Source: Bdellovibrio sp. SKB1291214
GTDB lineage: Bacteria > Bdellovibrionota > Bdellovibrionia > Bdellovibrionales > Bdellovibrionaceae
Assembly (NCBI RefSeq): GCF_002209355.2
Contig: NZ_CP106855.1
Span: forward strand, 496,001-560,000
Length of the DNA stretch: 64,000 bases
Direction of reading: 5' to 3'
The translations under genes and the position numbers were made by a program. The notes under the pieces were generated by a model, which made no database searches, was not told the DNA's origin, and saw nothing but the letters and a program-made list of their open reading frames with translations. Positions 1,617-42,548 of this stretch are shown piece by piece (the first letter of the stretch is position 1; each line of letters starts with the position of its first letter).

Positions 1617-3728
1617 TCAGTTATCGAAATCAACACCAAAGCTATTCGAAAACTTTTTCATATCCAGCACAAACTTACGTTCACTTAATCTAATATTTTC
1701 AATTTCAATGGAAACTTCCTCCCCATTCAAAGATTTTCGAAGATTCTGATGTAAAATACTTTGATTTGATAAAAAGTTATTTAAATCTTCCGGCTTAAGA
1801 TTATCTCCGACCCAGAGTTTTACTTCTGTTTTTTCATCCTGCGGTTTGCCAAAGTATATTACTCCGTCGATTATAAATCGATTAAATTCTTTTGCAGACC
1901 GAACCGGATGACCGTCAATCTCCATGCCATTAAAAAGCCTCTGACCAAGTACAAGACAAGTGTGAATAGCTTCGTCGCCATTAATTTCAAATCCAACTTT
2001 ACCATTGATATATTCTACAAAACCGGCTGTCTGAAACAAAGTCCTTGCTTTGCTAAGTTGTGATGTTCCTTTCTTTACGGCATCCCAAAGACTTCTAACT
2101 TCAAATGAATCGGTCGGAAGCAATGAGTTTTTAAATTCAAAAATATATAAATTCTTTCCCAGTTTAAAAATGAAATCAAAATCCCCCGATATACCTTTAA
2201 ATCTGAAATCAACTTCTCGCGAATACATCGTCGTTTTATTAGAAATAGATTTAACCAGCAGATCACCTATCGGATCAGTCATTCCTCCAGAATCCAATCT
2301 CAACTTTGTGGTGAAAAGTGCATTTCTAACCACGCTAGACATATCCAATGTCAACAAAAGTAAAAACATTTTATTATTTATACGAACAAGCGGAGAATAG
2401 AAAGGCTCAAAAAAATTGGATTCTTTAGGATTATAAGTTACAATTTGAAGTATCGCGGCAATTTGCACCGAGGAGAACCCAACGGCTTTTAACATGTTTT
2501 CTGTTTCTCCAATAGGTTGAAATGTCAGCAAGGAGTTTCGATACTCTTGAGAAAACAATCCTTTAGCGTATAGCTGATGCAAAGATTCATGTTTGATACG
2601 TGCAAAAAACTTCATAACTCTCTTGAACTTAACCAAATCAAGAACAGTTAAGTCCTCATGCAATTTAAAATCCATCAGCGCTGAGGATGAGGCCATAAGG
2701 TCATAGCAGATCTTTTCTAAAAAATGTGCTTCGTCTGGAAAAACACCATCCTTTAGTAGTTCCTCACCTAAAGCTTTCAAATAAGGTTCAGGGATTTGAA
2801 TTTTAACCCGGACCGAGCCGCCCCGCCCCACGATTGGAGCAACTAGGGTAAGTTTGTTTTTAACCAAATTGGAAACAGCGTCGTCCAATCCCTGATTAGA
2901 TAAAAACTTGGTCCTTGATGCAAAAATCATTTCTTGTAACAAGTTTGCCGTCCAACCAGTCTGGTAGAACTCCTCAAAACCGTCCAGTGGATGAAACAAG
3001 AAGTAGTGGTTTTCGGAAACGATATCCAATTCGTATCCCAAGAAAAGAATCTTAGATTTTAGCTCATGAAACTTCCTAAGTGTAATTCCAAGATCAACAA
3101 TTTTATCTAGACTCGTGAAATCATAATCTCTACCGCCAAGATTGTCTGGAAATGTATTTGCTGATTTGACCTCAAAATAATTACCTATCAAGTAACCAAT
3201 CGCAGACAACTTTTCTTCCGTCGATACCATAGCTCCGGTGAAGTCAGGAGTTGAGGGACGACTCCAAACCAGATGCTCTATGTACATCAGAAGACGCACA
3301 ACCACATAGCGATCCGCATTCATGAGCTGCCAAAGCGTATGCTCGACATTTTCTTTTGAATCCATGATAAGAGCTAATCGCTTCAAAGACTTTAACCTTG
3401 TTTGCCACTCAGGGAGCTTTTCCCATGCAATCGCCAAATCCAAGACCTTAACCGCCCATTGCGTATTATCAGCATTAAAAAACATCACTTGAACTATTTC
3501 TCGAGGCAAATCACAAGGAACAGGAGAACTCCAAAGGATCAGAATAAATGGTTTAAGTGCCTTCCCGACTCTCCCCTTACCGAAATTATTTACAAATTCG
3601 GACACCAGGAATGCACTCTCTGCCTTACTGAGCGCACGGCACTTAATTCTGTCTGACGAAGGATGCTCAGCAGAAATATCAACACCTATTTCATTAAAAT
3701 AGGTTTCGAGCGTTCCTGGTATGTTCAT
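1617..3728 (-). CDS. large uncharacterised protein with PD-(D/E)xK nuclease-like domain
   Basis: I do not recognise the full-length family. The start is set at the ATG at 3728 because GGAGG stands 5-6 nt upstream; an upstream in-frame GTG (3746) has no such site. The product has 703 residues, no signal peptide and no membrane segment. Around residues 505-545 it has the pattern of a PD-(D/E)xK nuclease core: an acidic GDFDFIF strand, a short turn, LYIFEFKNS (the E-x-K pair), and a later Gln in GTSQLSKA. The N-terminal 480 residues are helical and featureless. The gene is visibly AT-rich compared with the genes on either side and ends close to the convergent DHFR-like gene. A restriction or defence role is possible but is inference only. 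Confidence 0.65.
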   Translation of the reverse strand: MNIPGTLETYFNEIGVDISAEHPSSDRIKCRALSKAESAFLVSEFVNNFGKGRVGKALKPFILILWSSPVPCDLPREIVQVMFFNADNTQWAVKVLDLAIAWEKLPEWQTRLKSLKRLALIMDSKENVEHTLWQLMNADRYVVVRLLMYIEHLVWSRPSTPDFTGAMVSTEEKLSAIGYLIGNYFEVKSANTFPDNLGGRDYDFTSLDKIVDLGITLRKFHELKSKILFLGYELDIVSENHYFLFHPLDGFEEFYQTGWTANLLQEMIFASRTKFLSNQGLDDAVSNLVKNKLTLVAPIVGRGGSVRVKIQIPEPYLKALGEELLKDGVFPDEAHFLEKICYDLMASSSALMDFKLHEDLTVLDLVKFKRVMKFFARIKHESLHQLYAKGLFSQEYRNSLLTFQPIGETENMLKAVGFSSVQIAAILQIVTYNPKESNFFEPFYSPLVRINNKMFLLLLTLDMSSVVRNALFTTKLRLDSGGMTDPIGDLLVKSISNKTTMYSREVDFRFKGISGDFDFIFKLGKNLYIFEFKNSLLPTDSFEVRSLWDAVKKGTSQLSKARTLFQTAGFVEYINGKVGFEINGDEAIHTCLVLGQRLFNGMEIDGHPVRSAKEFNRFIIDGVIYFGKPQDEKTEVKLWVGDNLKPEDLNNFLSNQSILHQNLRKSLNGEEVSIEIENIRLSERKFVLDMKKFSNSFGVDFDN

Positions 3729-40205: not shown

Positions 40206-41447
40206 TTACTTTTTCTTCTTAGAAGATTTTTTTGCCGGAGCCGTTGAAGTCGCTGGAGCGTTCAAATCAATGCCCTCTGTGCTAGCTCTGATTTTTGCCG
40301 CTTCCAACTGAGCCTCTGCAGCTTCAGATTGAGCTTTCGCAGTTTCAGCTCTTATTTTTGCGTCTTCTGCTTTGCTCTTGGCTTCCTCCATACGAGAAGT
40401 CACAGACTCAAGATCCGCTTTTGCTTTTTCAGCAGAAGCTTTGTATTTAGCCAATTCAGCTTCAGCTTGTTTTGCTGCTGCTTCGTTGTCTTCAATTGAT
40501 TTTCTTGCGCGTGCCAACTCTTGAGAAGCTTTAGCTTCTTCTTCGCGGTACTTGATACGATTTTTTTCGAGCTCTTGCTTAGCTTTCGCTGCCGTTTGCT
40601 TGATTTTTTCTTCGTCTTTTTTCACAGACTCAAGCTTTTTACGCTCGTCTTCTGATTGAGAAACGATTTTTTTCGCTTCTTCGTTTGCTTGCTTCAGCTC
40701 AATTTCAGTTTTTTCAACCATGGCTTTAGCTTGCTCTTGTTGAGCTTTCAAACGAACGATTTCCGCTTCAGCTTTAGACTGTTCTGCTTGAGCACGAGCG
40801 ATATCACCTTTAGATTTCGCATCGCGAGCTTTTGATTCTGCCACTGCTTTTTCCACCAACAACTTAGTTTTAGCCAAGTTTTGATTTGCTTTAGCCGATT
40901 CAAGTTTAGCAGCATCAGCTTCTTTCGTGGCTTTCATACCAGCTTCTGTTGCAGCTTCAGCTTGTTTCTCAAGTTCTTTAGCCTGAGAGTTCATTTCAGA
41001 AGCTTTTTTCTCTTCAGCTGCTTTGTGAGCTGCCGCTTCTTCGCGAACTTTCTTTTGTTTTTCAGTTTTTTCTAAAGCAGCTTTACTGCGAGCTGTAGCT
41101 TCCGCTTGCTCTTTTTCTGCTTTCTTTTGATCGCGATCAAGACCTGCAACTTCCGCTTTCAATTTAGCGATATCGCGCTCTGCATTTGCTTGATCTCTTT
41201 TAGCGTCAGCTTCAGCAGCACGTGCTTTGCTGATGGCTGTTTGTGCTTCTGAACGAGCCTTATCACGGGCTTTGCGTTCTTCTTCGGCACGACGTTTCGC
41301 TTCGGCAGCCTCTGCCTTAGCGCCTTCAGAATCCGCTATTGCCTCTTCGGCTTCAATTTGTTTACTGTCGGCTTGTGCCAGTGCTCTTGTCGCTGTTGAC
41401 GTCATCAAAGCTGCAACAAGAAGAATACCCAGTGATTTAGAATGCAT
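40206..41447 (-). CDS. exported very long coiled-coil (TolA-like) protein
   Basis: 413 residues from the ATG at 41447, with AAGGAG at 6 nt. A Sec signal (MHSKSLGILLVAALMTSTATRALA) is followed by nearly 350 residues of Ala/Glu/Lys-rich helix with heptad patterning and no Pro until the C-terminal tail, ending in a Lys run. Such proteins form long rods across the periplasm or pull on other components. No known domain. The leader lies directly below the predicted sigma-54 small RNA (41501-41557). Confidence 0.75.
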   Translation of the reverse strand: MHSKSLGILLVAALMTSTATRALAQADSKQIEAEEAIADSEGAKAEAAEAKRRAEEERKARDKARSEAQTAISKARAAEADAKRDQANAERDIAKLKAEVAGLDRDQKKAEKEQAEATARSKAALEKTEKQKKVREEAAAHKAAEEKKASEMNSQAKELEKQAEAATEAGMKATKEADAAKLESAKANQNLAKTKLLVEKAVAESKARDAKSKGDIARAQAEQSKAEAEIVRLKAQQEQAKAMVEKTEIELKQANEEAKKIVSQSEDERKKLESVKKDEEKIKQTAAKAKQELEKNRIKYREEEAKASQELARARKSIEDNEAAAKQAEAELAKYKASAEKAKADLESVTSRMEEAKSKAEDAKIRAETAKAQSEAAEAQLEAAKIRASTEGIDLNAPATSTAPAKKSSKKKK

Positions 41448-41500: not shown

Positions 41501-41557
41501 AAAAAAAAAAGCGACCAGGATGGGGGGGGAGGGTCCTGGTCGCAAGGGGGGGTTGCT
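41501..41557 (-). ncRNA. predicted sigma-54-driven C-rich small RNA with two poly-C loops
   Basis: Reading the minus strand from the predicted start (about 41557), the RNA has GCAA, seven C, TTGC (a 4-bp hairpin, 41556-41542), then a perfect 10-bp stem GCGACCAGGA/TCCTGGTCGC (41543-41511) closing a loop CCC-T-CCCCCCCC-A, and ends in ten U (41510-41501). The total is about 57 nt with no room for a protein. The two stems share two bases. The C-rich loops are complementary to GGGAGG-type Shine-Dalgarno sequences, as in known C-rich regulatory RNAs. Alternatively it is an attenuator in the leader of the coiled-coil gene. Confidence 0.6.
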
Positions 41558-41568
41558 TTAGTACTAGA

Positions 41569-41583
41569 GCAATCGCAGTGCCA
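41569..41583 (-). promoter_or_regulatory. sigma-54 (-24/-12) promoter
   Basis: On the minus strand TGGCAC, five bases, TTGC (41583-41569) and then T, an exact match to the consensus TGGCAC-N5-TTGCW. The predicted start, 12 nt past the -12 C, is at 41557. An imperfect palindrome CACT-ACC-AGTG (41625-41635) lies about 45 bp upstream, a plausible enhancer-binding site. A perfect inverted repeat GGCCTA/TAGGCC (41667-41684) is further up. Confidence 0.7.
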
Positions 41584-41756
41584 GCCGAATGTTATGTTCA
41601 GATCTAATTAAACAGCTCTTGATTCACTACCAGTGTCGAGGTTTTGGACGAAGAGCGCCCTTTGTCGGCCTATACTCCTAGGCCAAATGATGGATCAAAA
41701 AAATCTCATTCTGACTGGACTCGACAGAATCAGCGGCAGAATTTCTACTTAAAGCA

Positions 41757-42548
41757 ATGGTCTTTCTCAGAATGAAACAAATATTATGTGCCCTAATCGC
41801 AGGGGTTTGGGTAACGCCTGCCTTGGCTTCGTTCCATATCGTACTTGATCCCGGTCACGGGGGTGTCGATAAAGGAGCGGTTTACAATTCTATTAGAGAG
41901 GCTGACCTTGTCCTTACCGTCGCGCAAAGACTGCAAACTCTTTTAAAAGAACATCCTGAATTTACGATCACCATGACTCGCGAAAAAGACCGCGCCATCA
42001 CCCTCCCCGAGCGAGTCAAAATGGCTGAAGAAGCTAACGCCGATCTTTACGTAAGCCTTCACGCCAACGCAGCCCTTGATCAACGCGCAAAAGGTGTCGA
42101 ATTTTTCTTTCAAAACAATATGCCTGTTGATGAAGACAGTTTGTATCTGGCGAATCAAGAAAACCAAGCCATCTTAAATGCCCGCGATATTCACACGATT
42201 TCTGGAGGCGACGAGCTTTCAAAAAAGGGAGACATCGCTGCGATTGTTGAAGATATGCGTCGCCAGAATCGCATGTTTTCCTCATTACGCTTAACAAAGG
42301 CGTTAACGACAATTTGGGAAAACGACGAAAACGCCATGCAGGCAACCATCAAACAAGCTCCGTTTTATGTTATTTCGAAGACGTCGATGCCGGCTGTATT
42401 AATTGAGATTGGCTTCATTTCCAATCCCCGCGAGGCCAAACGCCTGCAACAGAAGGATTATCAAAAAGATTTAGCTCAAAAAATCTATAACGCCCTCGTC
42501 TCATACAAAGAAAAGATGGACAATTCGTCAGCTAAGAACTTAAATTAG
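41757..42548 (+). CDS. N-acetylmuramoyl-L-alanine amidase (Amidase_3)
   Basis: 263 residues. Signal peptide ending near ALASFH, then the zinc amidase motifs LDPGHGG (His), EAD (Glu), SLHANA (His) and EIGFISNP (catalytic Glu). It cuts the amide between muramic acid and the peptide stem of peptidoglycan. An inserted helical region (about 150-200) resembles the regulatory helix of AmiB/AmiC. First gene of an operon with rph and rdgB. Confidence 0.92.
   Translation: MVFLRMKQILCALIAGVWVTPALASFHIVLDPGHGGVDKGAVYNSIREADLVLTVAQRLQTLLKEHPEFTITMTREKDRAITLPERVKMAEEANADLYVSLHANAALDQRAKGVEFFFQNNMPVDEDSLYLANQENQAILNARDIHTISGGDELSKKGDIAAIVEDMRRQNRMFSSLRLTKALTTIWENDENAMQATIKQAPFYVISKTSMPAVLIEIGFISNPREAKRLQQKDYQKDLAQKIYNALVSYKEKMDNSSAKNLN

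Follow-up and report, generated by a model that had tools for sequence, protein, structure and literature searches.

Among the small RNAs that depend on sigma-54, Qrr, GlmY/GlmZ and CrcZ are gammaproteobacterial, mostly linked to Hfq, longer than the RNA described here and devoid of a poly-C design. Small RNAs with C-rich motifs are also found in Gram-positive bacteria (those of Staphylococcus, LhrC of Listeria and RoxS of Bacillus), where they are larger, multi-stem molecules that do not involve sigma-54. To our knowledge, Helicobacter lacks Hfq. In Helicobacter pylori, RepG uses a C/U-rich terminator loop to bind a G-repeat located in the leader of an mRNA (PMC8295292). Eight intergenic non-coding RNAs, APsRNA1-7 and merRNA, have been reported from Bdellovibrio bacteriovorus HD100, three of them with FliA promoters and none described as sigma-54-dependent (PMC3627812). 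A literature search covering papers available without subscription found no sigma-54-dependent or C-rich small RNA in Bdellovibrio, and neither the literature searched nor Rfam contained a broadly conserved base-pairing small RNA of the class to which this genus belongs.

The locus that we analysed lies in a window (the whole stretch of DNA under analysis) of 64,000 nucleotides from the genome of Bdellovibrio sp. SKB1291214, which consists of one contig of 3.68 Mb. The letters of the promoter, C7 tract, stem, loop and T10 all occur where the original prediction had placed them, and the unit and its surroundings comprise the following features:

40206..41447, minus strand: coiled-coil gene, the downstream neighbour, without Pfam match
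41501..41557, minus strand: predicted 57-nt small RNA, class-wide (match of model R1 at 41556-41501, 76.4 bits)
41501..41510, minus strand: U10 tail of the intrinsic terminator (T10 in the DNA sequence), a T-run conserved in relatives
41511..41543, minus strand: 10-bp terminator hairpin, supported by folding (z -6.5) and covariation
41543-41534 and 41520-41511, minus strand: arms of the hairpin stem, GCGACCAGGA and TCCTGGTCGC
41533-41521, minus strand: terminator loop, CCCTCCCCCCCCA (given also as CCCUCCCCCCCCA)
41546..41552, minus strand: 5' C7 tract, unpaired in the folds
41568..41583, minus strand: sigma-54 promoter, -24 TGGCAC and -12 TTGCT, an exact match to TGGCAC-N5-TTGCT
41630..41670, minus strand: putative enhancer (activator) site, conserved in 19 aligned Bdellovibrio loci
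41757..42548, plus strand: N-acetylmuramoyl-L-alanine amidase gene (Amidase_3), divergent here and downstream in most other genera

The promoter is the sole exact match to TGGCAC-N5-TTGCT in the window, where 0.05 would be expected by chance. Between it and the stem, the minus strand reads AGCAA-C7-TT, and the position of the -12 GC would place the 5' end of the RNA at ~41557. The predicted fold consists of one hairpin (-18.1 kcal/mol, z = -6.5) and two exposed poly-C stretches, one in the 5' tail and one in the terminator loop. A 5' GCAA/TTGC hairpin, which had also been proposed, can indeed be drawn, but it is absent from the predicted structure, and just 3 of 100 relatives have the letters that would pair in it; with this 5' stem unconserved, the suggested switch between two stems found no support. 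The genome contains a single copy of the RNA, which rules out a multicopy family within it. A small protein product was also rejected, since no Shine-Dalgarno site was seen and the loop indels in the alignments are not multiples of three.

The likeness of this RNA to RepG would be mechanistic, with no claim of sequence homology. Both are intergenic and conserved, both would expose the C-rich loop of an intrinsic terminator to pair with G-runs in mRNA leaders, and here too Hfq (PF17209) was not detected in the genome, the same search being positive in five control genomes. However, the loop is mostly C instead of C/U, the 5' end carries a second C-tract, the RNA folds into a single hairpin where RepG has two, and the promoter belongs to the sigma-54 type. 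With Qrr, GlmY/GlmZ and CrcZ the unit shares a sigma-54 promoter preceding a non-coding RNA, whereas its shorter length and poly-C design set it apart. With the Gram-positive RNAs it shares C-rich single-stranded stretches that are predicted to be aimed at ribosome-binding sites, although the sequences are unrelated. Like APsRNA1-7 and merRNA, it is an intergenic non-coding RNA of the same organism group, but none of these lies near its homologue at 2,620,001-2,620,057 (minus strand) of a genome that we take to be that of HD100. The homologous interval is not listed in the table of HD100 attack-phase small RNAs (PMC3627812). Because that study lists attack-phase RNAs only, its authors stating that they could not define those of the growth phase, this absence is no sign of silence and is consistent with an RNA that is scarce or made in another phase. 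A known Rfam RNA was ruled out: no family matched at its gathering score and none matched, even weakly, over the RNA itself.

A covariance model built from the RNA part alone, with the promoter excluded, matched 114 of the 144 genomes of the class and 55 of its 69 genera, counts in which absences are soft (one genome, G040, has the module and its promoter despite a low model score). In a single phylum-wide run, for which 225 genomes from outside the class served as specificity control, 113 in-class genomes were matched as against one out-of-class genome (Fisher p ~1e-64). This sole outside match (L149, genome G344, 1801-1849) combines C-rich sequence with a C-loop terminator and lacks the sigma-54 promoter; it appears to reflect chance or convergence. 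Within the family, BLAST searches with a 200-base stretch gave matches in 39 of 66 genomes, the similarity in distant genomes being limited to the interval from promoter to terminator.

Some other sites resemble the unit in part. In the Bdellovibrionaceae MAG L033 (~2850-2900), the site upstream of the coiled-coil gene retains a plain terminator-like hairpin (GGCCAGGA...TCCTGGT) and nothing more of the unit, both the C-tracts and the sigma-54 promoter being missing; it looks like a loss and may be a decayed copy of the unit. A second element of similar design is found in three genomes (L153, L154 and L155 in G004, G023 and G034, 1801-1855, minus strand), with a C5-6 tract, a CCCAGGC...CCCCCC...GCCTGGG hairpin and a T-run, and without sigma-54 promoter. 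The L154 copy apparently comes directly after a small reading frame, and the element is perhaps a C-loop RNA derived from a 3' end. Two genomes of one genus (L150 and L156, 1801-1846) carry a C-rich RNA-like element that has several C-runs and a terminator and, likewise, no sigma-54 promoter.

The structure of the RNA is conserved together with its terminator. In the stem, 94.7% of the alignment cells are paired and, in this alignment fitted to the structure, 83 both-side changes were counted against 41 in shuffles (0/500 as high); a MAFFT alignment of 26 sequences agrees, with 8 both-side changes against 1.5. One stem pair is divided between U-A (51) and A-U (46). The C-rich loop of the terminator hairpin is conserved among relatives, both in the alignment and in composition (70% C and 1% G), over lengths of 3-23 nt, and the 5' C-run measures 4-9 nt. 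When five divergent members were folded, each gave one hairpin and a free C tail.

Since the model was built without it, the promoter provides an independent test of the RNA. GG-N10-GC with TTGC occurs upstream of the RNA at 94 of the 98 loci having enough upstream sequence, against a background of 22 in 5177 windows of the same loci (0.4%), and other spacers were found at 0-12 loci. The GG and TTGC letters are fixed by the search pattern, and positions 1, 4 and 16, which are partly or wholly free, conform to the sigma-54 consensus as well, and the middle is variable. The distance from the -12 C to the start of the C-tract is 14-16 nt in most loci. Promoter and hairpin, which were expected to be conserved together in close relatives, are so across the class, and this supports the central claim of the original prediction, namely a C-rich small RNA under a sigma-54 promoter. 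The gene rpoN (bd0843 in HD100; PMC3464611) is present in 60 of 66 genomes of the family and in all 20 of its genera; among the six genomes without a match, five are incomplete (54-88%) and one is 94% complete. In the genus Bdellovibrio, a block of ~40 nt located ~47-87 nt upstream of -24 contains a GACAATTGTC palindrome and a TGTC-N9-GACA dyad (genus consensus ~GACAATTGTCGTTTTCTGTCTAAAACCTCGACA). In this genome the block is less palindromic (GACAAAGGGC...CGTCCAAAACCTCGACA), its symmetry being partly lost. A sigma-54 activator might bind to this block, and transcription of the RNA would depend on sigma-54. On the evidence of sequence, the unit is very probably a real and uncatalogued small RNA gene, present across the class and endowed with a sigma-54 promoter.

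Two conserved unpaired C-tracts of loose length indicate that the RNA has either a G-run partner or a C-binding protein. Our main reading, to which we assign a probability of roughly 0.6, is that of a trans-acting, Hfq-independent antisense small RNA, similar to RepG, with poly-C tracts masking G-run ribosome-binding sites. We infer its expression, pairing, repression and targets as follows. An enhancer-binding protein, perhaps bound ~47-87 nt upstream of -24, would switch on the sigma-54 RNA polymerase, which would make the 57-nt RNA and stop at its own C-loop terminator. The RNA would then act in trans through base pairing, without Hfq, its C-tracts pairing with G-runs at or beside ribosome-binding sites and thereby blocking translation.

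The original prediction had suggested a regulator of many mRNAs; the search for targets brought out one conserved candidate. This leading candidate, proposed as a candidate only, is a gene of the GGACT family (PF06094). Its ribosome-binding site is a G-run that replaces the usual AAGGAG and is kept across the family (L188-L217). In most Bdellovibrio species the gene is preceded by GGGGGGGATAATG, with G7, in this genome by CCGGGGGGATTATG, with G6, and in other genera of the family by G-runs such as AGAGGGGGGATT. The site in this genome lies outside the window:

near 1428592 of G000:C1, minus strand: G-run ribosome-binding site of the GGACT-family gene

Among the 53 genes of the window, none has G5 or more at its ribosome-binding site. 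The loop would pair to the GGACT leader with -16.2 kcal/mol; the window genes have a median of -6.2, and one of them is equally strong. Cofolding of the RNA with this leader gave no clear advantage over shuffled leaders. Beyond the family, the G-run of the GGACT gene does not follow the presence of the RNA. Genomes with the gene tend also to have the RNA (81/11/33/19, Fisher p 0.001), an association confounded by phylogeny and by incomplete genomes. Because 33 genomes have the RNA but yielded no GGACT gene, this gene cannot be the sole target of the RNA. A second G7 site occurs, in this genome and two close relatives, before the gene of a 426-aa secreted protein without Pfam match. At the genome scale, G7-N3-12-ATG has 192 matches in the genus versus 88 for the reversed pattern. 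The forward and reversed counts are 329/145 in genomes with the RNA, 263/154 in those without it and 295/158 outside the class. Since genomes lacking the RNA or lying outside the class nearly match those that have it, we read the excess before start codons as mostly an ordinary Shine-Dalgarno effect and rejected it as proof of targets.

The genomic neighbourhood bears on two other explanations. The unit might be a sigma-54-controlled leader that attenuates the next gene, the coiled-coil gene here and the amidase gene elsewhere, with read-through when a signal disrupts the terminator. Most loci do have a same-strand gene starting soon past the terminator, and across most of the class the unit adjoins the coiled-coil gene and a cluster of amidase (Amidase_3), rph and rdgB, the latter label being taken from gene order in the window. 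However, in each of the 19 Bdellovibrio loci the coiled-coil gene comes next downstream of the RNA, in 73 others the amidase gene does, and in six genomes the RNA reads against a convergent gene. There is also no conserved alternative antiterminator stem, the 5' GCAA/TTGC stem being the one found in 3/100 sequences. Attenuation, which had been put forward for the coiled-coil gene, fails because the downstream gene changes and is convergent in those six genomes; we consider it very unlikely in general, and the coiled-coil gene is probably not regulated as an attenuated leader. In the genus Bdellovibrio, the stretch from the terminator to the start of the coiled-coil gene contains a conserved TATATCCTA-like block, perhaps the -10 element of this gene itself; a generic sigma-70 scan found nothing. 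The RNA is thus conserved with no dependence on one downstream gene, and the order of promoter and RNA stays the same regardless of the neighbour that the unit faces. This constancy speaks against a conserved DNA structure, namely a G-run or quadruplex-forming strand beside the promoter, to which the RNA would be incidental. The opposite strand does carry G8, G3 and G7 runs, but the compensatory stem changes, the one-sided U tail and the fixed promoter spacing are all retained, and we find such a structure hardly credible as the conserved object.

The C-tracts themselves might act by another route, if the poly-C tail and loop served as a decoy titrating a C-binding protein (e.g., Rho, a KH-domain protein or a cold-shock protein) and pairing to mRNAs were secondary. 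C-richness is kept although the loop varies in length and register, which would be expected if C-content were all that counted, and no target set specific to the RNA-bearing genomes was found. However, we found no precedent for a decoy of this shape, both tracts are short, and the family has conserved a candidate target with a G-run; a role mainly in protein binding seems to us unlikely. A broader possibility, which we entertain tentatively, is that the sigma-54-induced poly-C RNA works as a general decoy or a broad anti-Shine-Dalgarno factor, tuning down a whole series of G-run mRNAs (or a C-binding protein) upon a change in the state of the cell, in a class that counts obligate bacterial predators among its members and with Hfq not detected.

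The RNA is single-copy, class-wide and tied to sigma-54 by a near-invariant promoter, and the literature searched says little about what sigma-54 does in the life cycle of Bdellovibrio. With 57 nt and one hairpin, its gene would be easy to delete or mutate. Through it, one could study directly what sigma-54 governs in these bacteria and, where Hfq was not found, how control at the RNA level can operate through G-run ribosome-binding sites.
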